37,004 nucleotides of DNA from positions 1 to 37,004 of IMG/VR virus record IMGVR_UViG_3300036792_000242. The stretch is one strand, 5' to 3'. Numbering within the stretch: the stretch's first letter is position 1; the number at the start of each line of letters is the position of its first letter. Shown in pieces: positions 561-37,004 of this stretch. The notes under the pieces are model-generated. The model had not been told where the DNA came from and ran no database searches. It was given only the letters and a program-made list of their open reading frames with translations. Position numbers and translations under genes: made by a program. The DNA is from a virus.

Positions 561-651
561 GGTGCCCCCATCTCGTTCCTTCTCACTCCGCTGGGTCACG
601 GTCCCACGTTCCGGCCTGGCCGGTGAAGTGGGCCGCTTCCCGTCGGGACCG

Positions 652-9422: not shown

Positions 9423-9597
9423 CCAACCAACCAAGGGGGTGCGCGTGGCGTGTCCCAACCAGATGAGTCACCTGTTCGTGACCGCGACGTCGTTCGCGGT
9501 GGAGGCTGAGACCGACATCCTGTACGTCTACCGGGACACGAAGACCATCGCGGTCTTCAAGACGTGGGACCACGCCTGGTACGCGGAGGAACGGTGA
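9415..9597 (+). CDS. small hypothetical protein
   Basis: A 60-residue protein from GTG 9415, with GGAGG 7 nt upstream. It overlaps the helicase stop at one end and the GTG of the Cas4-like gene at the other (GTGA). A predicted beta-rich middle carries TDILYVYRDTKTIAVFKTWDHAWY. No family is recognised. Its tight packing between helicase and nuclease suggests co-translation with the recombination genes. Confidence 0.65.
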   Translation: MADQPTKGVRVACPNQMSHLFVTATSFAVEAETDILYVYRDTKTIAVFKTWDHAWYAEER

Positions 9598-10550
9598 CAG
9601 CCGACACCGTTCTCGAGATCTCCAACTCGGAGATCCAAACGGCGCAGCGCTGCCCGCGCCAGTGGGCGCTGACGTACCACTGGCACTGGCAGCCGCGGCC
9701 CGAGGCCACCTCTCCGGTGGGCAAGGCGCAGATGGGTGGGAACATCCACCTCGCGCTCGAGGCGTGGTACGGCCACGACGTGGACCCTCTCGTGGCCCTC
9801 CGGTGGGTGTACGACCGCCTGGCCACGGAGCATCCAGGCTGGCAGGACCTGCTCGAGAAGGAGCACGCCCTGGCGCAGGCCATGCTGCTGGGGTTCAGGC
9901 AGTGGCTGGACGAGACGGGGGTGGACAGCCAGCTGGAGGTCATCGGCGTCGAGCGAGAGCTCGTGGTGCCGCTCGACGCGTCACCGGGCTACGACGTCTC
10001 CTGGCGGGCCCGGTTCGATCAGGTGGTGCTCAACCGGGTCACCGGCGCGTACCTGGTGCGGGACTGGAAGACCGTGGACAGCCTCGCGAAGGCGAACCAG
10101 CTGGCGCTCAACCAGCAGATGCGCTTCTACGCCCTGCTTCTGTCCCTGTGGCACCGCCACGACGACCCCCCGATCGTGATCGGGGGTGCCCTGTACGTCA
10201 TGCTGAAACGGTCCAAGCGCACCCTGCGGGCCAGGCCCCCGTTCTACGAGCAGGTCGAGATCACGTACAACGAGCACGACCTGAACTCAACCTTCCTTCG
10301 GTCCCGCGCCGTGACGAACCGGATCGTGGACTGGCACGCCCGCCTGGACGCCGGCGAGGACCACCGCGCCGTGGTGTACCCGAACGCGACGGACTTCTGT
10401 GACTGGGGCTGCCCGTTCCGCAACGTGTGCCCGCTGCTGGACGACGGTAGCCGGTGGGAGGACGCGCTCGTCGGCAGCTTCAACCGCGGGGACCCCTACG
10501 CGTACTACGAGCGAGACCGCATCACCGACCTCGTGAGGGAGCTGAGCTGA
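9594..10550 (+). CDS. Cas4-like PD-(D/E)XK exonuclease with Fe-S cluster motif
   Basis: A 318-residue RecB/Cas4-type nuclease. The nuclease core has His52, Asp142 in RFDQVV, and DWK at 157-159. Cys20 in RCPRQW together with Cys269, Cys273 and Cys279 (CDWGCPFRNVC) matches the four-cysteine iron-sulfur site of Cas4 and AddB. It would resect double-stranded ends to give single strands for the downstream annealing ATPase and SSB-like protein. There is no nearby CRISPR array or cas1, so a role in phage recombination is preferred. The GTG overlaps the previous stop (GTGA). Confidence 0.85.
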   Translation: MTADTVLEISNSEIQTAQRCPRQWALTYHWHWQPRPEATSPVGKAQMGGNIHLALEAWYGHDVDPLVALRWVYDRLATEHPGWQDLLEKEHALAQAMLLGFRQWLDETGVDSQLEVIGVERELVVPLDASPGYDVSWRARFDQVVLNRVTGAYLVRDWKTVDSLAKANQLALNQQMRFYALLLSLWHRHDDPPIVIGGALYVMLKRSKRTLRARPPFYEQVEITYNEHDLNSTFLRSRAVTNRIVDWHARLDAGEDHRAVVYPNATDFCDWGCPFRNVCPLLDDGSRWEDALVGSFNRGDPYAYYERDRITDLVRELS

Positions 10551-16597: not shown

Positions 16598-16627
16598 GTT
16601 TACAAATCACCGCGGTGGTGGTACGGT
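16598..16627 (+). promoter_or_regulatory. promoter GTTTAC-N18-TACGGT
   Basis: GTTTAC (16598-16603), 18 nt, TACGGT (16622-16627) preceded by TGG. The leader GGAAGCGAGCGAGAGGA follows. It drives the last two rightward genes before the convergent terminator. Confidence 0.73.
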
Positions 16628-16658: not shown

Positions 16659-16895
16659 ATGACCGTCTACCGACACGCGACCCGTGAGCAGGTTGAGCTG
16701 ATCGCACAGCTCGCACACGAACGCTACATCGCCGACCCGGTCAACCGTGCCAGGCTTCAGGAGCTGGTGCGGTCGCACCTCGCCGGCGCCTACCGCTTCA
16801 CGCCCGGTGAGGCGGACGCCACCGTCGCCTGGCTGCTGCGGCGCCCGGCGCGACGCGGTGTTCCCCAGCGAACCATGCTGGCTCCCGCGGCGTGA
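16659..16895 (+). CDS. small hypothetical helical protein
   Basis: A 78-residue basic protein starting at an ATG with GAGAGGA upstream, directly after a promoter. Predicted helices include REQVELIAQLAHERYIADP and RARLQELVRSHLAGAY, with an Arg-rich end. No family is recognised. Together with the WhiB gene it forms a two-gene unit under its own promoter, so a regulatory role is possible but unproven. Confidence 0.62.
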   Translation: MTVYRHATREQVELIAQLAHERYIADPVNRARLQELVRSHLAGAYRFTPGEADATVAWLLRRPARRGVPQRTMLAPAA

Positions 16896-16935
16896 CATAA
16901 AGATGACAACGAGAAGCGTTAGGGAGGTGCCACCG

Positions 16936-17223
16936 ATGACGAACCTCGACCCGGATACCCGCACCAAGACCGACTGGCGGCACCGCGCCGCCTGCCGTGA
17001 CGAGGACCCCGAGCTGTTCTTCCCCGTGGGAACCACGGGTCCCGCCCTGGTACAGACCGCCGAGGCCAAGAAGGTCTGCCACCGCTGCCCAGTAGCGGCC
17101 ACCTGCCTCGCGTGGGCCCTGGCCAACGGCCAGGACGCGGGCGTGTGGGGCGGCCTGAGCGAGGATGAGCGTCGGGCACTGAAACGCCGGCGCAAGTATG
17201 AGCTCAGCAAGGCTCGTCGCTAG
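16936..17223 (+). CDS. WhiB-family transcriptional regulator
   Basis: A 95-residue protein with the four cysteines of the WhiB Fe-S cluster: one in RAACRDEDPELFF, CHRC, and the last in TCLAWAL. The GVWGGLSEDERR turn and a basic C-terminal helix are also present. WhiB proteins occur in actinobacteria and their phages and act on transcription through the primary sigma factor. This is the best single clue to the host group. ATG 16936 has AGGGAGGTG 6 nt upstream. The gene is the last one rightwards before the convergent terminator. Confidence 0.92.
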   Translation: MTNLDPDTRTKTDWRHRAACRDEDPELFFPVGTTGPALVQTAEAKKVCHRCPVAATCLAWALANGQDAGVWGGLSEDERRALKRRRKYELSKARR

Positions 17224-17300: not shown

Positions 17301-17768
17301 TCACTCGGTCTTGCCCTGCGCGGTGGTGCCCTGCGTTGGATACGTCACGGTGACGCTACTGCCGTTGGATGTCGTCACGACGGGTGAGACGAGCCCCACG
17401 GGGTAGCTCACGGTGGCAGCTGTCTTCAGTTTCGCCGTCGGTGTCAGGTTCTCGCGGAAGATCAGGCTCAGGACCAGGCTGATGGCGGCGACACCCGACG
17501 CGACGTAGCCGGCCGGCAGCTGCAGACCGAACCCCTCGCACGCGGTGATCAGCGTCGCCAGCGCCCCAGCCAGCACCGACAAGGACACCGGTCGTGCCTG
17601 GATGGCCGTGTAGGCCGCGGCTAGCGCCGTGGTAGCGGTGGTCACCGTGGCGGTCTGCGTGTCCCCGAGGTGGAACACGAAGGCCAGCAGGGCGGCCAGG
17701 CCACCGTTGGTGAACCACGCCACGAGCGCGGGCTCGTGACGCAGCAGGTCCCTGAGCCTCTGGGGCAT
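17301..17768 (-). CDS. putative holin
   Basis: A 155-residue membrane protein with hydrophobic segments near residues 14-33, 61-78 and 86-105, and a further weak one near 40-57. A soluble, Thr/Ser/Val-rich C-terminal tail follows. It lies directly downstream of the lysin, the usual position for a holin, and no other gene here fits better, although the small membrane proteins upstream could share the task. Holins form membrane lesions that release the lysin to the cell wall at a set time. It is the last gene of the leftward late operon, before the terminator. Confidence 0.65.
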   Translation of the reverse strand: MPQRLRDLLRHEPALVAWFTNGGLAALLAFVFHLGDTQTATVTTATTALAAAYTAIQARPVSLSVLAGALATLITACEGFGLQLPAGYVASGVAAISLVLSLIFRENLTPTAKLKTAATVSYPVGLVSPVVTTSNGSSVTVTYPTQGTTAQGKTE

Positions 17769-17779
17769 AGCCGATCCTC

Positions 17780-18625
17780 CTACTTGCTGAGCTGAGCGTC
17801 GAGAGCCGCCACGACGGCCTGGCCGAACTCTTGCGGCGTGGCGTTCGCCGGCAGCAGCGGCACCAGCGCCGGCGCCAGGGCGTCCGCCAGTGTCTTCACG
17901 TCGACCTGTCCACCGGTCGGCTGAGCCTTGATCGCGGTCAGCAGGGCGGCTTGCTCAGACGACAGGACGCCGGAGAGAGCCGCCATGGCGGCCTGGGTTC
18001 GTTCGCCGTCACCGAGGACGTCCCAGACCTGACGGCCGCTGGAGCCGGCCGGCTTGTTGGGGGTGACGATGTAGTAGTTGAGCAGGGTCGCGGCGACGAG
18101 GTTCGCGTCGTCCTGGGTCAGTGCCACGTCTACCTCCGGGTCAACGCCGGGCCAGTGATCGGCCACGACGGAGATGTCGTAGTTGGCGGTTGAGGAGTAC
18201 TGGTGAGCCACCGCGCCGGCTGGGATGACCGCGCCCCCACCGGGGTACGCCGCGACCCACCAGTGCGGCTCGGGCTCGGCGGCGGCGGCGAAGGCCGCTC
18301 GACAGGCCGCCCAGCCGTACGTGACGCCGTTCTGGTTGAACGACCCCTCGGAGCAGTAGCCGGTGGGGTCGACGCCCGCGGCGCGACGCATCTTGACCCA
18401 CCGAACCAGGCCGGCGGGTGTCATGTCACCTGGCTCGCTGTCACCGACGAGGCCGGCGTTGGTCGTGGAGAACACCGCGATCGGCACGTGGATGGCGTTC
18501 GGGAACAGCTTCCAGTCCGCGGCGGTCCACGCGAACCTGCCATCGGCGTAGCCGGCGACCAGCCTGGCGTCGGTGGGGATGCCGCTGGAGGTGATCGAGT
18601 CGTACATGGTACGCACGTCTGTCAC
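17780..18625 (-). CDS. endolysin, GH25-like glycoside hydrolase fold
   Basis: A 281-residue protein. Residues 1-190 resemble the TIM-barrel lysozyme-like (GH25/DUF1906-like) lysins of actinophages: YDSI near the start, RLVAGYADGRFAWT, IHVPIAVFSTT, GLVRWVKMRRAAGVDPTGYC, HWWVAAYP, AHQYSS and PGVDPEVDV. A helical C-terminal region (about 215-281) may bind the wall or mediate assembly; no standard wall-binding repeat is seen. It cleaves peptidoglycan at the end of infection. The GTG overlaps the upstream stop (GTGA), and the holin gene follows after 11 nt. Confidence 0.75.
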   Translation of the reverse strand: MTDVRTMYDSITSSGIPTDARLVAGYADGRFAWTAADWKLFPNAIHVPIAVFSTTNAGLVGDSEPGDMTPAGLVRWVKMRRAAGVDPTGYCSEGSFNQNGVTYGWAACRAAFAAAAEPEPHWWVAAYPGGGAVIPAGAVAHQYSSTANYDISVVADHWPGVDPEVDVALTQDDANLVAATLLNYYIVTPNKPAGSSGRQVWDVLGDGERTQAAMAALSGVLSSEQAALLTAIKAQPTGGQVDVKTLADALAPALVPLLPANATPQEFGQAVVAALDAQLSK

Positions 18626-18846
18626 CGTACCTCGTCCGCGGGTGCGGTGGAACCCTCGGTGGGAAGCTGATCAACCTTACGGTGCAGGTGATCGAGCCGG
18701 CTGTTGACCCGCTTGAAGTGGGGTCGGATGCCGACGAGGTAGCCAGCCAGGAAGCAGATGCCGCTGGCCACCAGGTTGGGATAGACCTGTGACCAGCCGT
18801 CGCTGAGCCTGCCGAGCGGCCAGAGGACCCACAGCAGCCCCGTCAC
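18622..18846 (-). CDS. small membrane protein in lysis cassette
   Basis: A 74-residue protein with a hydrophobic segment at about 23-42 (YPNLVASGICFLAGYLVGI) and a helical, charged C-terminal part containing VNSRLDHLHRKVDQL. Start and stop overlap both neighbours. Single-pass proteins in this place are often auxiliary holins or anti-holins in actinophages. This is inferred from context only. Confidence 0.65.
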   Translation of the reverse strand: MTGLLWVLWPLGRLSDGWSQVYPNLVASGICFLAGYLVGIRPHFKRVNSRLDHLHRKVDQLPTEGSTAPADEVR

Positions 18847-19202
18847 GGTCCGGCTGCCTTGGCCTCGAACGCGCGTTGGTAGTAGTCGGCTCGGCGGTTG
18901 GCGAGCTCGAGACGGGAGCCGGCGTCTTGCATCAGCGACCGCTCGTGCTGAACCTCCGCGGTGAGGTCACGGACCTGCTCGCGGAGGGCGCTGCACTCAT
19001 CCTCGAGCTCACGGACGCGCTCACGGAGGGGGGTCAGGAGCTGCAGCGCGGTCGCGGAGATGACCTGCACGTCCTCGGTCTCGAGGTGCGTGGCCTCGTT
19101 GGTCAGCTTGCGGTTCTTGGCGCGGGCGTGGATCAGGGCTCCTACCAGGGTGGGCAGGGACACCACGGACAGCACGGACAGCACGGCGTCGAACACGCTC
19201 AC
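18843..19202 (-). CDS. membrane-anchored coiled-coil protein
   Basis: A 119-residue protein. Residues 2-24 form one membrane helix (VFDAVLSVLSVVSLPTLVGALI). Residues 45-110 have strong heptad character (LRERVRELEDECSALREQVRDL). The plan, one anchor plus a long coiled coil, resembles spanin-type or other lysis accessory proteins. Actinobacteria lack the Gram-negative outer membrane, so a true spanin is not expected. It sits between two membrane proteins upstream of the lysin. Confidence 0.68.
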   Translation of the reverse strand: MSVFDAVLSVLSVVSLPTLVGALIHARAKNRKLTNEATHLETEDVQVISATALQLLTPLRERVRELEDECSALREQVRDLTAEVQHERSLMQDAGSRLELANRRADYYQRAFEAKAAGP

Positions 19203-19204
19203 GG

Positions 19205-19654
19205 CTACTCCCTTGCGTCGGTGGTGCCGGATGGTCTCGTCACGTCCTCGGTCAGGCTGGTCTCAACCTCGTGAAGCTCCCCTCCGATCTGGCTGAACCG
19301 CCAGGCGCACGCGGCCGCGAGGCTGACGAAGAACAGCGCGCTGACGGCGGCACGTAGCCCGTAGGCATCCAGGGTCAGGGCAGAATACACCAGCATGAGA
19401 AGAGCGAGGACGGAGAGGCCGGCGCGTTCGAGCAGCGTGCCCCACAGCGTGCGCAGGGCGAGGCCCACGAGCACGGTGCCGGCGCCGATCATGAGGCCGA
19501 TGCCGAAGATGATCGTCACCACGACCGGTAGCTGGCCGGTGGCCGAGCCGGTTCCGAGGTGCTGACGCAGCAGGAGGATCGCCGCGCCTCCCAGCAGCGC
19601 GGCGACCATGAACATCACCTCGAAGGGACTGGGTCGGGCACGCATGATGATCAC
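19205..19654 (-). CDS. four-helix membrane protein
   Basis: A 149-residue protein with four predicted membrane segments near 11-29, 41-68, 76-95 and 100-120, and a charged tail with ELHEVETSLTEDV. GTG 19654 is chosen because GGGAGG lies 9 nt upstream; an ATG at 19645 is the alternative, and a longer frame upstream overlaps the minor tail gene. It may be an alternative holin, or it may change the host membrane. No specific family is recognised. Confidence 0.65.
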   Translation of the reverse strand: MIIMRARPSPFEVMFMVAALLGGAAILLLRQHLGTGSATGQLPVVVTIIFGIGLMIGAGTVLVGLALRTLWGTLLERAGLSVLALLMLVYSALTLDAYGLRAAVSALFFVSLAAACAWRFSQIGGELHEVETSLTEDVTRPSGTTDARE

Positions 19655-19676
19655 TATCTTCCACCTCCCGGTGTCG

Positions 19677-20207
19677 TTACACGTGGACCCAGCGGACTCG
19701 CATGAGCGAGGTGTAGTCCGTGCCAGACGCACCGGTGTTGAGCGCGCCGCCCGAGCTCTGGCTTACCTGCACCTCGACGAAGTCGTTGACGTTCAGGAAC
19801 ACGTCACACACGGTCACGGCGGCGGCGGTGACGGCACCGCCGTAGGCGGGGCCGTTGCTGGCGGTTCCCAGCACGGCGGTGCCGTTGACGGCGAGACGGA
19901 CGCCCCAGTTGTTGACCGTCGCGGAGCCGGCGACGGCGATGCCGCTGACGTTGTACCAGCCGGCGACCTGCGCGGTGTACCGTGACGTGTTGGTCGTGAC
20001 CGAGTGACCGCCGTACGTGTCCACCCGGTTGAGGTTGAACAGCAGCGAGGTCCACGTCGCGTTCGGGATGGACTGTACCGCTCCCGCGTAGCAGACGCAG
20101 ATCGGCGGGTTCTGCAGGAACAGGATGCCCTGGTAGTACGTGTTGATGTTGTCGGCGGTGACGATCTCGGCGACGGCGAACTGGTGTGGGGAGGGAACGG
20201 TAGCCAC
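19677..20207 (-). CDS. minor tail protein with C1q/TNF-like beta domain
   Basis: A 176-residue protein. After a short N-terminal stretch (VADNINTYY-type adhesion sequence, PHQFAVAEIVTADNIN) the rest is a beta sandwich: ATWTSLLFNLNRVDTYG, YTAQVAGWYNVSGIAVAG, RLAVNGTAVLGT, and a closing SLMRVRWVHV. This matches the C1q-like heads often found on phage tail appendages. The likely role is in tail tip structure or host recognition. GTG 20207 has AAAGGAG 5 nt upstream. The gene follows the large minor tail gene. Confidence 0.65.
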   Translation of the reverse strand: MATVPSPHQFAVAEIVTADNINTYYQGILFLQNPPICVCYAGAVQSIPNATWTSLLFNLNRVDTYGGHSVTTNTSRYTAQVAGWYNVSGIAVAGSATVNNWGVRLAVNGTAVLGTASNGPAYGGAVTAAAVTVCDVFLNVNDFVEVQVSQSSGGALNTGASGTDYTSLMRVRWVHV

Positions 20208-28390: not shown

Positions 28391-29623
28391 TCAGTACGTC
28401 GGGTAGTTGTTGATAACCGTGACCTTGATGGGGCCGAGCCCACCGCTGCCGCCGACGTCCGTCGCGTTGGCGACGCCGACGTACTCGTCCTGGTACCCGA
28501 AGAGGACGGACGAGCGCTCGGGCTTCGCCTTGATGAAGGCGCACTGGTGGATGTCGAACGAGTAGCTGATCTGGTTCGTGGTGGACAAGCCGTTGTTGAC
28601 GGCGATGACCGCGCTGGGCTGCGTGTTGTTGAGCATCTGCGTCAGCGGGGACTCGTCCGACACGACCGCGTAGTTGATGGTGCCGGTCACGTCGAGCGGG
28701 CCGCGGGCGATGATGTACGGGTTCTGGAAGCCCTGGTTGGTGTAGTAGACCTGCAGCTGCCGCTTGATGGAGATGGTCCACTCGCCGACGTCGTACAGCG
28801 GGGAGCCACCGATGGTGACCGTGGATCGCCAGTTGGGGATCGGCACCGTGAACGTGGTGGTGTTGGTCGGCTTCGCGCCGGCGGGAGTGCTGACCCACGA
28901 GTTGCCGCTGACCTTGGCCTCGAAGAGGCGTTCCGCGTTGCCGGTGAAGTCGAGCTGTGCGACGCAGAGCGACGGGTAAGCCCGGGCTCCCACGGTGGGG
29001 GTCAGGCCGGTGTAGTCGGTGACCGTGTGTGTCGGCGGCTGCCCGTTGCCGGAGTTCAGGCTGGCGAACACGTGGGTGTAGGGGCCGATGACGGTGTGTA
29101 GCGCGACCGCGGTGCTGTGCGCGAACCGCAGCGGCGTGGTCGTGAACGTCAGGGTGGGACCGGTGACGTTGCTAAGCTTGACGACCTCGGCGGTGCTGCC
29201 GGCCGCGACCTGCACGAACTGGCCGATCGAGAAGCCGGTGCCACTGGCCGCGGTTAGGGTCGTGGCGCCGGCGGTGAGGGCGCCGCTGACCGTGGAGGAG
29301 CCGCCCGCCGTGGCGGTGCCGATGGTGGAGAGGTCCCCGAAGACGTTGTCGAGGAAGTAGCCGTAGACGTCCCCGAACACGGGGCCACCGTAGCTGAAGG
29401 TCGCGTCCTCGACACCGAGGATCTCGGCGTACGTCTTCGCCATGGCGCCACGGATGGCGTCGTCCGGCAGGAAGATCGGCGTGTCCTCGGGCTGGTACGA
29501 GCCCTGGTCGAGGGGGATCGTCGCCACGGGCGCGACGGGGGTGCCGGCCGCACCCGCCGCCTCGCGTCCGATCCCCAGCCAGGTGAGGACGGAGGGGGCG
29601 ACCGTGCTGGGGATGTTGCTCAC
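28391..29623 (-). CDS. major tail protein
   Basis: A 410-residue tail tube protein. The N-terminal half has TPIFLPDDAIRGAMAKTYAEILGVEDATFSYGG and DNVFGDL. A Thr/Ala/Val-rich insert of about 70 residues (GGSSTVSGALTAGATTLTAASG) follows, resembling the small beta domains in other structural proteins here. The C-terminal half has FTGNAERLFEAKV, VGEWTISIKRQLQVYYTNQGFQNPYIIARGPLDVTG, and a C-terminal DIHQCAFIKAKPERS. This matches actinophage major tail proteins and the position just before the chaperones. The GTG overlaps the stop of the preceding small gene. Confidence 0.85.
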   Translation of the reverse strand: MSNIPSTVAPSVLTWLGIGREAAGAAGTPVAPVATIPLDQGSYQPEDTPIFLPDDAIRGAMAKTYAEILGVEDATFSYGGPVFGDVYGYFLDNVFGDLSTIGTATAGGSSTVSGALTAGATTLTAASGTGFSIGQFVQVAAGSTAEVVKLSNVTGPTLTFTTTPLRFAHSTAVALHTVIGPYTHVFASLNSGNGQPPTHTVTDYTGLTPTVGARAYPSLCVAQLDFTGNAERLFEAKVSGNSWVSTPAGAKPTNTTTFTVPIPNWRSTVTIGGSPLYDVGEWTISIKRQLQVYYTNQGFQNPYIIARGPLDVTGTINYAVVSDESPLTQMLNNTQPSAVIAVNNGLSTTNQISYSFDIHQCAFIKAKPERSSVLFGYQDEYVGVANATDVGGSGGLGPIKVTVINNYPTY

Positions 29624-31540: not shown

Positions 31541-32179
31541 TCAGTCCAGCGGGGAGGCTAGACGCTCCACGAGCTCCTGCTTGGTGCCGCTGGCGTCGAC
31601 CTCCTGCGCCTCAGCCAGGGCCCGTAGCTCGGCGACCCGCAGCCTGGCGAGGTCGGGAACGGACGTGGGAGGCGAGGGTGCGGCGTCGGCCTCCTGGCCG
31701 GTGGCGGCGGCCCGGGGCTCGATGCGGGAGCCACACGTGCCGCAGAACCGGTGCGCGGGGTCGCAGGGGTGGCCCTGCGGGCAGTCCACGGTGGGGGCGT
31801 CGATGACGTCCCCGGGGCGGATGGGGTCCCCGCTGAGCAGGCCGGCCGCGGCGATGGCCCGGGCGAGCTGCTCGGGAAGCTTCTCGTGGCTGCCGGCGAT
31901 GGCCAGGATGGCGTCGACGAGCTGCCCCTCGCGGTCGCGCTGGCCGCGCTTGTCCCGTTCCTCCCGGGCGCGCTGCTCGTCGGGGGTCTCGGGGATCTCG
32001 GCCAGGGTCGGGGACCAGAGGGGGTCGGTGCGCAGGTGCTGCTCGCAGGCTGGGCAGTCCAGGGCCCAGATCTTCACCGCGGCGCCTTGGGTCACCTCGC
32101 GGGAGTGCGAGGCTCCGCAGCCACCGTGGTCGGCGGACAGCGCGACGTGAACGACGTCGCTTCGGGCGTACAGGGTCAC
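31541..32179 (-). CDS. zinc-ribbon and SAP-like domain protein
   Basis: A 212-residue protein. It has a first Cys-pair with CPACEQH near 42-48, a helical middle (EQRAREERDKRGQRDREGQ), and a second zinc ribbon HPCDPAHRFCGTCGSR near 137-152. A C-terminal SAP-like helix-turn-helix segment follows (LARLRVAELRALAEAQ, then SGTKQELVERLASP), as used for DNA or protein binding in phage head proteins. GTG 32179 has GGAGG 10 nt upstream. This ribosome site lies close to the -35 of the opposite-strand promoter at 32200. Confidence 0.7.
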   Translation of the reverse strand: MTLYARSDVVHVALSADHGGCGASHSREVTQGAAVKIWALDCPACEQHLRTDPLWSPTLAEIPETPDEQRAREERDKRGQRDREGQLVDAILAIAGSHEKLPEQLARAIAAAGLLSGDPIRPGDVIDAPTVDCPQGHPCDPAHRFCGTCGSRIEPRAAATGQEADAAPSPPTSVPDLARLRVAELRALAEAQEVDASGTKQELVERLASPLD

Positions 32180-32199: not shown

Positions 32200-32229
32200 G
32201 TTTACATTGTGACGGGTCCGTGGTATGGT
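32200..32229 (+). promoter_or_regulatory. promoter GTTTAC-N18-TATGGT of the rightward island
   Basis: GTTTAC (32200-32205), 18 nt, TATGGT (32224-32229) preceded by TGG, then the leader GGAACGAATGAGAGAGGA. It directs transcription against the surrounding late genes into four small genes. Confidence 0.78.
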
Positions 32230-32264
32230 TGGTACCAGGAACGAATGAGAGAGGATGGTTCCAG

Positions 32265-32627
32265 ATGTCGAACCCCGCGCCCTGGTTGCCCCCGCAGCTG
32301 CAGGCCCCTCCCGGCCTGACCGCGAAGGAGCAGGAGGAGAAGCTCAAGGCCGACTTCCCGACCGTGCAGAAGGGTCACACGGCCGAGATCCCGAAGGAGC
32401 TGGAGGACGCGTACCGCTACGCGGCCAACGCCGTGGACTACTGGGAGAACCAGAAGAGGCTGGTCCTCAACCAGATCCGCGCTCACATCGGTAGCGCTCA
32501 GACCGCGACCGTGAACGGCATCCCGGTCGTGTCCCGACGTTCCTACAAGGTGGAGGAGAAGGTCATCCCGTCCCACTGGGTGGACGGCTTCTGGCCGGCC
32601 ACCGGCTCGAAGGCGAGCCAGGCGTGA
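32265..32627 (+). CDS. small helical protein resembling C-terminal part of YqaJ-type proteins
   Basis: A 120-residue protein starting at ATG 32265 after the typical leader with GAGAGAGGA. The order of a long helix (EIPKELEDAYRYAANAVDYW), a second helix (NQKRLVLNQIRAHIG) and a small beta part (AQTATVNGIPVVSRRSYK) is like the C-terminal segment of phage YqaJ-like nucleases, but the nuclease domain itself is absent. Whether it is a remnant or a partner protein is unknown. It is the first of four overlapping rightward genes within the leftward structural region. Confidence 0.62.
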   Translation: MSNPAPWLPPQLQAPPGLTAKEQEEKLKADFPTVQKGHTAEIPKELEDAYRYAANAVDYWENQKRLVLNQIRAHIGSAQTATVNGIPVVSRRSYKVEEKVIPSHWVDGFWPATGSKASQA

Positions 32628-32749
32628 ACGTGTTTCTGGCTGCCACGAGCCAGGCTGAGGCTACGTCCTGGCCGGACGCGGTGGTCAAGATCTTCCTGAT
32701 CATCGCCATCGCGACCGTGACGATCGTGTTCTTCAGGTTGTTCAAGTGA
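32624..32749 (+). CDS. 41-residue single-pass membrane protein
   Basis: The GTG overlaps the stop of the gene before (GTGA). A short polar start (ATSQAEATSWPD) precedes a membrane helix at about 20-36 (VVKIFLIIAIATVTIVFF) and a short basic end RLFK. The next gene overlaps the same way, so the three tiny frames are coupled. No family is recognised. Confidence 0.62.
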   Translation: MNVFLAATSQAEATSWPDAVVKIFLIIAIATVTIVFFRLFK

Positions 32750-32841
32750 CCGCGGGAGACTGGGTCGCCATCGCCGTTGGCGTCGTGTTCGTGGCTACGT
32801 TCGTGGCGGTCTGGGTGACCATGAAGAGGAACGGTAAGTGA
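32746..32841 (+). CDS. 31-residue single-pass membrane protein
   Basis: The GTG overlaps the previous stop (AAGTGA), and the stop overlaps the next GTG in the same way. Nearly the whole protein is one membrane helix (WVAIAVGVVFVATFVAVWV) followed by a basic end MKRNGK, so the C-terminus is probably cytoplasmic. Confidence 0.58.
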   Translation: MTAGDWVAIAVGVVFVATFVAVWVTMKRNGK

Positions 32842-32924
32842 TCGCTAACGTCTTGTTCATCGTGTTCATCGTGGTCGCCTGCGTCGCCATCGTGGTGGGC
32901 GGCGGCAGCGACGATTTCATCTAG
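32838..32924 (+). CDS. 28-residue membrane microprotein
   Basis: GTG start in AAGTGA, as for the gene before. It is a single hydrophobic helix (ANVLFIVFIVVACVAIVV) with an acidic C-terminus (GGGSDDFI). The stop TAG overlaps, on the other strand, the stop of the leftward gene in the palindrome CTAG at 32921-32924. Confidence 0.52.
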   Translation: MIANVLFIVFIVVACVAIVVGGGSDDFI

Positions 32925-33205
32925 GCCTCAGCCTCCGGTGCGGTGATAACGCCGCACCGGGGGCACACGTATGACCAGGCGTTCCATAGCCGACGGCAGG
33001 GCTCACAGCGTCGGCCCTTCTTGGTGCCCAGGTAGGAGCGCGGTCGGGCGCTGACCAGGCCGGCGTCGCCCCCGGTGGACAGCCTCTCCACCGCGGCGGC
33101 GTGGTGCTCCGCCACGTCGACGTGGCCGTTGTGACCCGTGTAGCGGGTGCCGTCCTGCAGGTTCAAGCCGTTGCAACCGGGAGGCAGGTTCACGCGGACG
33201 GTCAT
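32921..33205 (-). CDS. small zinc-ribbon protein
   Basis: A 94-residue protein. The N-terminal part has RVNLPPGCNGLNLQDGTRY, common in small actinophage head-region proteins. A C-terminal zinc ribbon is formed by CEPC and CPRC (RRCEPCRRLWNAWSYVCPRCG). ATG 33205 follows GAGGTG and lies 9 nt after the stop of the gene before. Its 3' end contains a perfect hairpin (32935-32960) that may end transcription of the opposing island. Function unknown. Confidence 0.7.
   Translation of the reverse strand: MTVRVNLPPGCNGLNLQDGTRYTGHNGHVDVAEHHAAAVERLSTGGDAGLVSARPRSYLGTKKGRRCEPCRRLWNAWSYVCPRCGVITAPEAEA
32935..32960 (+). terminator. possible terminator hairpin after the rightward island
   Basis: A perfect 9-bp stem CCGGTGCGG / CCGCACCGG with an 8-nt loop TGATAACG begins 11 nt after the last island stop. 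There is no T run. It lies within the coding end of the opposite gene. Confidence 0.4.
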
Positions 33206-35198: not shown

Positions 35199-37004
35199 TC
35201 AGCTGTAGGGGGTCGTGGCCGACTGCTGCAGGCCACCCAGGTGCGCCGAGTACTGCGGCGCGTGCGCGACCATGGCCCCGAACAGGAAGATCGAGTACCG
35301 GAAGGTCGCGTCGATGACCGGCCAGGCGATGGACACGTAGTCCTGCACGCAGGTCATCTCCCAGGCGTTGGCCACGTTGGTCCACGTCTGGGGGAGCTGG
35401 TAGGTCAGCAGGTCCGCGTTGCCCTGCTGGTACCACGGGTGCACGACGAGCTTGAGGATGGACCGCGTGAGCGGGTTCCGGAACTCGTCGACCGCGGCAC
35501 CGGTCTGGATGCCACCGGTCTCGCTCTGCTGGATGAACAGCCGGTAGTTCGTGGCCGTTCCCTGCGAGACCACGTCGTCGCTGAGGTTGGCGATGTCGAT
35601 GCCGGAGGAGATCAGCTCCGCCGGGTCGGCCTTGAACGAGCCCGGGTTGTTGCCCGAGGTCGCCCACAGCTGCTTCAGCACCGTGTTGATGGTGCTGTAG
35701 TTCAGCGTGGTACCCACCGCGTTGTTGACGTACCCGCCCTGCCAGCCCGACGGGTAGATGCCGGCGTTCGCCGAGACGCCGGTCAGCGTCGGGATGACGC
35801 CCTCCATGCGAGTCGGCTTGCCCGTGCCGGTGTCCACCGTCGGCGGGACCGCGGTGGCGGTCGGGATCGTTGGGCCCTGCAGCGTGAAGCGCACGCCACC
35901 CACCTGGGACTGCATCAGGTGGAAGGAGCTGTTCGCGAAGCCGGCCGTGGTGGACACGTAGATGTTGTAGAAGATCGCGCCGGCCACGGTGGGGATCGTG
36001 ACGTCCACGACCTGCGTTCCCGACAGGGTGGTGATGTCGGTGCTGTGCACCGAGCCCGCGGTCTCACCCCAGTAGTTGCCCGCCGTGACGATCACGGCGA
36101 AGTGCGACCCCGAGGGGAGCGCCGTCTCGTTGGAGCCGGCGGTGCGGGCCGTGGTGGTCGGCGTGCCGGTGCTGGCGAGCGGGACCGAGGTCCCCGCGAT
36201 CATCTGGTACTCCTCGCCCAGCATCATCTCCTGAAGCATGATGAGGTTCGCGAGCGCGGAGATGTCCTCGAAGCCCTGGCCGGCGAACTGAGCCAGCCAC
36301 GACAGCTGCTCGGTGATGCCGAAGAACCGGTACGGGACGTTGAGCTGGACCTCGGTCTGGTTACCGGACTGGGGCAGGTTCAGCGGCCAGGTGTTGAAGG
36401 TCGCGTTGGACTGCACCAGCTCCGGGATCGAGATGTCCAGGACGCCCTGGCCGCCGGTCTGCGAGCCCGAGATACCGGTGAATACCTTCTCCATCCGCGA
36501 CAGGCCCTGGCCCTGCGGGCGCGGGAACTTGTTGCGGTACAGGGTGTAGACCGGGTAGATCAGCCGGCTGGGCGCCAGGAGGTCGAACGGCACCAGGCCG
36601 TAGACCGAGCCGATGCCGAGGTTGCCGGCGGTGAAGCTCTTCAGCGCGTCCGAGCCACCGGGCAGCATCTTGACCAGCTGCTGGATCTGCTCGAACATGG
36701 ACGGCGCCGACAGGGCGGTCTTCAGCGTGCCGAAGTTGTCCAGGAAGCCCTGGTTCAGGCCCTTGACGACGGTCGGCCGGTCGGTGAAGCCGCGGTAGGT
36801 CTCCGTGCGCAGGTCCAGGGTGGCCTGGTGCGCGCGGACGGTGATGTCACGCTGGTTCTCCAGCGGCCGGTTGCCGCCGATGGGGGCCAGGCCGGCGCCC
36901 TTGACCAGGGTGGTCATGGACGTCTTGATGGCCTCGCCGACCTTGGAGTGCGCCTGGGCGCCGGAGGTGAGGGTCGCGAGCGCGTCGGTGGGGTTCGCGG
37001 CGGG
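35199..37004 (-). CDS. major capsid protein, 5' end outside the window
   Basis: The frame is open to the window edge; the first visible ATG is at 36917, and 29 further codons run upstream without a stop, so the true start may lie beyond. From ATG 36917 the product is 572 residues. It has a long N-terminal helical part, NKFPRPQGQGLSRMEKVFTGISGSQ, and VPYRFFGITEQLSWLAQFAGQGFEDISALANLIMLQEMMLGEEYQMIAG. An insertion of about 110 residues with Ig/FN3-like pattern (HFAVIVTAGNYWGET, AIFYNIYVSTTAG) follows, then a C-terminal HPWYQQGNADLLTYQLPQTWTNV and YVSIAWPVIDATFRYSIFLFGA. This fits actinophage capsid proteins of HK97 fold. Confidence 0.82.
   Translation of the reverse strand, partial: PAANPTDALATLTSGAQAHSKVGEAIKTSMTTLVKGAGLAPIGGNRPLENQRDITVRAHQATLDLRTETYRGFTDRPTVVKGLNQGFLDNFGTLKTALSAPSMFEQIQQLVKMLPGGSDALKSFTAGNLGIGSVYGLVPFDLLAPSRLIYPVYTLYRNKFPRPQGQGLSRMEKVFTGISGSQTGGQGVLDISIPELVQSNATFNTWPLNLPQSGNQTEVQLNVPYRFFGITEQLSWLAQFAGQGFEDISALANLIMLQEMMLGEEYQMIAGTSVPLASTGTPTTTARTAGSNETALPSGSHFAVIVTAGNYWGETAGSVHSTDITTLSGTQVVDVTIPTVAGAIFYNIYVSTTAGFANSSFHLMQSQVGGVRFTLQGPTIPTATAVPPTVDTGTGKPTRMEGVIPTLTGVSANAGIYPSGWQGGYVNNAVGTTLNYSTINTVLKQLWATSGNNPGSFKADPAELISSGIDIANLSDDVVSQGTATNYRLFIQQSETGGIQTGAAVDEFRNPLTRSILKLVVHPWYQQGNADLLTYQLPQTWTNVANAWEMTCVQDYVSIAWPVIDATFRYSIFLFGAMVAHAPQYSAHLGGLQQSATTPYS

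Follow-up and report, generated by a model that had tools for sequence, protein, structure and literature searches.

A rightward, moron-like cassette within the late arm of an uncultured soil phage encodes a putative nuclease-free YqaJ C-terminal homologue and three coupled single-helix microproteins

The DNA analyzed here, called the window, is an IMG/VR virus record of 37,004 bp. It has a GC content of 67.7% and is organized into two arms. The rightward arm encodes replication functions, comprising thymidylate synthase, DNA polymerase, helicase, a PD-(D/E)XK exonuclease of the PF12705 family (9564-10547), a Sak4-like annealing protein and SSB, together with a methyltransferase and a WhiB-domain protein (16747-17223; PF02467, E 1.2e-27). 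The leftward arm is the late operon and includes the tape measure gene. The window comes from a large uncultured phage group that encodes WhiB, and given WhiB and the GC content the host of the group is probably actinobacterial. No lysogeny genes were recognized within the 37-kb fragment. A late gene of 572 aa (about 35199-36917) matches PHROG 13692; neither this gene, nor a second large gene in the vicinity at 28391-29623, nor the two genes flanking the locus described below gave matches with a named function. On the late strand, a block of transmembrane (TM) protein genes at 17301-19732 (-), beside a 281-aa gene, is a candidate lysis region encoding a three-TM protein of 155 aa, a 119-aa protein with an N-terminal TM segment and a coiled coil, and a four-TM protein of 175 aa.

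Inside the late arm, a unit on the opposite strand runs rightward from 32201 to 32924 (+) and consists of one promoter and four overlapping genes, followed by a hairpin. The promoter (32201-32229) has the form TTTACA-17-TATGGT, with the -35 element at 32201-32206, the -10 element at 32224-32229 and a TG before the -10; a leader motif common to the replication-arm promoters, AGGAACGA, follows at 32237-32244. The first gene (32265-32627) starts with ATG and encodes a 120-aa protein. The next three start with GTG and encode microproteins of 41, 31 and 28 aa, here called m41 (32624-32749), m31 (32746-32841) and m28 (32838-32924), and each start overlaps the preceding stop as GTGA. Each microprotein is predicted to be mostly a single membrane helix, with peak 19-residue hydropathy of 2.7, 2.5 and 3.2, respectively. 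An earlier note on this DNA had described the same reading frames and overlaps, the single-helix character of the microproteins and a promoter-driven unit opposed to the late operon, and the analysis agrees on each point. Directly past the m28 stop lies a 15-bp hairpin (32931-32964; -33.6 kcal/mol, z -5.5), which falls inside the final part of the convergent gene's reading frame; the stop codons of m28 and that gene overlap as CTAG. The hairpin, which has no T tract, is a candidate terminator for the cassette. The unit is flanked on the left by a SAP-domain gene (31541-32179, -; PF02037, E 9.3e-7) and on the right by a 94-aa zinc-ribbon-like gene (32921-33205, -), whose zinc-ribbon matches are weak and below the cut-off. 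Both flanking genes are kept in relatives. The GC content of the island is 62.6%, and that of its microprotein part 59.7%, a modest difference from the window.

The promoter belongs to a small family in the window. The motif TTTAC-N-TGGTAYGGT, with a AGGAACGA-like leader after it, is found near positions 703, 1274, 15202, 16619 and 32221, always on the plus strand, and the stricter form of the motif is expected zero times by chance. The leader motif itself is present in five copies versus 0.74 expected. Four of the five promoter copies serve the rightward replication arm, although the copy at 703 has a poor -35 match. The claim that the cassette uses an early-type promoter is therefore right in the sense of a replication-arm type, while its timing is an extrapolation: judging by where promoters of the same type are located, the cassette would be transcribed early, alongside the replication genes. 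Two other features of this family were observed. The copy at 16619 sits upstream of a small ORF (16659-16895), and positions 573-720 likely hold a divergent promoter pair, made up of a TTTACTTTTGAGCGGCGTGGTGGTAGGTT-like sequence on the minus strand, whose AGGAACGA is at 573-580 (-), and, facing it, the plus-strand copy at 703; the minus-strand copy, near 690-573, was judged by eye.

The three microprotein frames carry a strong coding signal. GC at the third codon position is 0.90, 0.87 and 0.93 in the three ORFs, which lie in three different frames, compared to 0.31-0.59 in the other frames, and the observed frame score was reached by none of 20,000 shuffles. This codon-position signal changes frame exactly at every GTGA junction, and for this reason m41, m31 and m28 look truly coded. 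The window contains a single run of three coupled hydrophobic micro-ORFs, and no such run appeared in 60 Markov windows or in 1.5 Mb of relatives.

Relatives of the window were reached via the 572-aa gene and a 410-aa late gene. From scans with the 572-aa gene the best 80 of 97 relatives were kept, with contigs of up to 135 kb. The space between the zinc-ribbon-like and SAP-domain genes was defined as a slot, counted in 52 distinct loci having both flanks and called empty when fewer than 60 bp separated them. By this measure the slot is empty in 24 loci; nine hold a member of the 120-aa family, six a late-strand insert of 4-5 kb and 13 other content. All nine 120-aa homologues are on the strand opposite to the late operon. 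A profile search of 42 IMG/VR relative records and phage Leaf recovered no copy of the 120-aa gene elsewhere, save the C-terminal part of a full-length nuclease discussed below. When mapped on the tree of the marker gene (572 aa), the 120-aa gene is present in both deep clades and requires at least four changes on well-supported branches and six at best fit. Long residence in the slot with repeated loss or replacement appears to fit best, repeated transfer being a less likely alternative. The closest homologue (L029; 58% identity over 106 aa) lies in a slot that starts with the same promoter layout and the leader (TTTACT...TGGTATGGT...AGGAACGA) and continues after the 120-aa gene with a hairpin-like element, and other occupied slots also show promoter-like starts. 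This pattern points to the slot as a hot spot at which related phages swap accessory genes. The earlier note had likened the placement of the cassette to that of a moron between head genes. The head-gene identity of the neighbors is conjectural, while the moron-like placement is borne out by the adjacency of the flanking genes in the 24 empty loci, the cassette's own promoter, its end hairpin and its real microprotein frames.

The microproteins are absent from all nine relatives that carry a 120-aa homologue in the slot, and the trio as such from every relative, so the microproteins would be dispensable for whatever the 120-aa gene does. By these comparisons the conserved core of the cassette is the 120-aa protein, not the microproteins, a point that had been overlooked. 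Other slot contents were also noted. The slots closest to the window by marker gene (L002:5257-9925 and L006-L009) hold inserts of 4-5 kb, which contain no microproteins, only other late-strand genes, some of them sugar-epimerase- or glycosyltransferase-like by eye. A further gene that recurs in the slot, in L046, L048 and L049, encodes a small protein on the opposite strand whose shared motif is close to EAFP.....DRE....(M/L)H(D/G)(E/D)C(F/Y)..W. In L053 and L058, the members of the 120-aa family carry, close to their last strands, an extra insertion that contains C..C and resembles a zinc ribbon.

The 120-aa protein has a partial relationship to recombination nucleases. Family members from the window and two relatives (L029 and L076) match PHROG 434, a RecE-like exonuclease family, at positions 241-348 only. 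A relative whose slot is empty (G003) encodes a full-length nuclease of this type (PF09588 YqaJ, E 7.5e-26; TIGR03033 lambda-exonuclease family, E 1e-26), and the 120-aa family profile matches this nuclease only in the region of about 220-290 (hhalign 94%, E 1.2e-7; hmmsearch E 1.4e-7). The matched region follows the nuclease domain and extends from a YP...GK..E segment through a (L/M)GDA..A...G motif. Because the profile matches only the C-terminal region of the full nuclease, we infer that the 120-aa protein is a free-standing, nuclease-free relative of the YqaJ/lambda-exonuclease C-terminal extension, a kinship that the earlier note likewise did not report. It is not a YqaJ nuclease itself, since the PD-(D/E)XK nuclease domain (PF09588) is missing from it: the protein shares the post-nuclease extension of the YqaJ/lambda-exonuclease family (PF09588, TIGR03033, PHROG 434) but lacks the domain and active site, and it is encoded as a separate gene in an accessory slot. 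Homologues were not found by nucleotide and tblastn searches of phage records, by a single-protein IMG/VR scan or by a scan of bacterial genomes. The AlphaFold model of the protein (pLDDT 86) has a helix at 20-30, a long helix at 44-75 and three strands. Foldseek and VIA searches with this model returned no convincing fold, the best Z score being 2.8 to HU/IHF-like and unrelated proteins, and for the YqaJ C-terminal extension no solved fold turned up. A model of the full nuclease built from four sequences was poor (pLDDT 42) and was set aside.

It is conceivable that the 120-aa protein is what mainly acts, inhibiting or redirecting recombination nucleases of the host or of competitors, with the microproteins incidental. 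In favor of this, the 120-aa gene alone is conserved in the slot, and its product has no nuclease domain and aligns with a segment that is not part of the nuclease core. The exonuclease of the window phage is of a different family, PF12705, in which the YqaJ-type C-terminal region was not found, and such an inhibitor would thereby avoid interference with the phage's own enzyme. Phages are described as carrying inhibitors of host end-processing enzymes (PMC9836394). We judge an inhibitor acting in this way to be rather unlikely and favor a moron-like accessory cassette in which the microproteins also have a part.

One of the microproteins has relatives outside the group. Among 50,697 phage records, the sole matches to m41 at E values up to 10 came from two Microbacterium phages, Leaf and Dewdrop, in each case the annotated gp20 (50% over 34 aa, E 8e-3). 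m41 also matches a 39-aa frame in a relative (G036; E 9e-4), and this frame in turn reaches gp49 of the Gordonia phages GodonK (E 6e-3) and Phendrix (E 4e-2). These peptides of 39-41 aa have an N-terminus resembling (M/V)N..L.AA..Q....(T)SWPD(A/V)(V/I), followed by one helix and a C-terminal Arg, and are referred to here as the TSWPD family. Deviations are seen in Leaf, where N and Q are missing and F replaces W, and in G036, which has GWPD. The start of each overlaps an upstream stop, as GTGA in the window, G036, GodonK and Phendrix and as TGATG in Leaf. m41 shows the length of 39-41 aa, the WPD/FPD before a single hydrophobic helix and the start-stop overlap; the WPD/FPD motif is absent from m31 and m28. 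All of the microprotein matches are short, with E values of about 1e-3 to 1e-2 in large searches, and no single E value is strong; it is the joint agreement of motif, length and coupling that makes membership of m41 in a recurrent, translationally coupled family across Microbacterium and Gordonia phages and one relative convincing at the sequence level. The hypothetical 40-aa proteins Leaf gp20, GodonK gp49 and Phendrix gp49 are thus like m41 in length, (T)S-W/F-P-D motif, helix, C-terminal Arg and stop overlap, but unlike the cassette they have another upstream gene and no 31- or 28-aa partners. The upstream partner is the 120-aa YqaJ-tail protein in the window, a 140-aa secreted-looking protein in G036 and gp48 in GodonK, which is named an antitoxin in its RefSeq record. 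The conservation that the earlier note had proposed to look for was accordingly found for m41, in other actinophages, but not for m31 or m28, for which no relatives were found.

Several further candidates were rejected. Leaf gp19 showed no homology to the 120-aa protein; matches of Katyusha and GMA2 to the 41-aa family were weak or frame-inconsistent and were left uncounted; a DNA pattern for TSWPDAV found four frames, all unrelated; and the weak similarity of m28 to an NCBIfam entry, a small hypothetical membrane protein, was far below the cut-off and was discarded. A scan using GodonK, Phendrix and window rows recovered GodonK alone. In GodonK (gp48-gp51; L118:1252-2937), the 40-aa TSWPD gene lies between the antitoxin-named gene and a gene named as an ADP-ribosyltransferase or phosphatase, which is macro-domain-like by eye. 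In G036 (L116:1079-1617), the stretch carrying the TSWPD microprotein and its coupled 140-aa partner resembles a tRNA gene cluster by eye.

Small hydrophobic proteins encoded in tandem could also form a distal lysis cassette, with the three microproteins as holin-like or holin-regulating peptides. Overlapping chains of TM genes away from lysA are known in Gordonia DR, AN and B-cluster phages (PMC9671378), and in mycobacteriophages, proteins with one TM segment that are encoded near holins are toxic (PMC11797047). Against this, the promoter is of the replication-arm type and transcription runs against the late operon, each microprotein has only one helix in 28-41 residues, and the late strand already has the TM-protein block at 17301-19732; the linkage to lysis genes and the late transcript of a lysis cassette are thus contradicted by promoter class, strand and distance from that block. 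The promoter class and the existing late-arm block make a lysis role improbable, and since distal holin cassettes are known it is lowered rather than dismissed. The orientation of the cassette against the late operon, together with the CTAG overlap with the convergent gene, could instead mean that its transcript interferes with transcription of the late operon and so delays it, with the proteins of minor importance. The slot is empty in nearly half of relatives, the reading frames carry a strong coding signal and the terminal hairpin would curb read-through, all of which make such antisense regulation very improbable. That the microproteins are chance open frames is hardly credible, even though the nearest relative lacks them and has its hairpin-like element straight after the 120-aa gene, given the frame-switching codon bias, the triple GTGA coupling, the absence of such chains from Markov windows and the annotated relatives of m41.

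Taken together, the best reading appears to be that the cassette is a moron-like accessory unit of an early type at a long-lived insertion site, serving host takeover or superinfection exclusion; we give this explanation as a whole a probability of roughly one half. The anatomy and evolution of the cassette as described are held with high confidence. A role of the 120-aa protein in recombination or at DNA ends is plausible at slightly less than even odds, and a role of the microproteins in exclusion or membrane takeover is more tentative. In this accessory cassette, transcription from the replication-arm-type promoter would begin early with the replication genes, and late transcription crossing the cassette in antisense would later silence or overrun it. 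Coupled translation would set the ratios of the cassette proteins. The 120-aa protein may be a decoy or accessory factor without a nuclease domain, binding to DNA ends, to an exonuclease or to an annealing partner, and the three microproteins, predicted to insert as single helices in the host membrane, may alter it for takeover or to exclude competing phages. A two-part form of exclusion, in which the nuclease-tail domain would capture incoming DNA ends or recombination machinery while the co-translated peptides act at the membrane where DNA enters, is a long shot.

Comparison with known systems is consistent with this accessory reading. Morons have been described as prophage elements that have promoters of their own and do not belong to the lytic cycle (PMC6814406). 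The cassette is like them in its own promoter, its end hairpin, its position between two genes that are neighbors in relatives and its lower GC, but differs in having a promoter type common to the replication arm, which suggests early expression in the lytic cycle, and no recognized lysogeny gene in the fragment. HK97 gp15-type proteins, small membrane morons for superinfection exclusion, resemble the cassette by description, as small membrane proteins in a moron-like unit within structural genes, and differ in orientation and promoter class. None of the four cassette proteins matched PADLOC defense models, and none matched defense, exclusion or holin families; superinfection exclusion, membrane alteration and defense against other phages, which the earlier note raised, are hypothetical functions.

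In a large uncultured phage group of actinobacterial type, the late operon appears to hold a dedicated site for recurrent opposite-strand cassettes that carry their own promoters. This slot ties in two unstudied gene types, a putative nuclease-free YqaJ C-terminal protein and 40-residue membrane peptides coupled stop to start. Since GodonK, Phendrix and Leaf have been isolated and their hosts are named, the TSWPD peptides are immediately testable at the bench.
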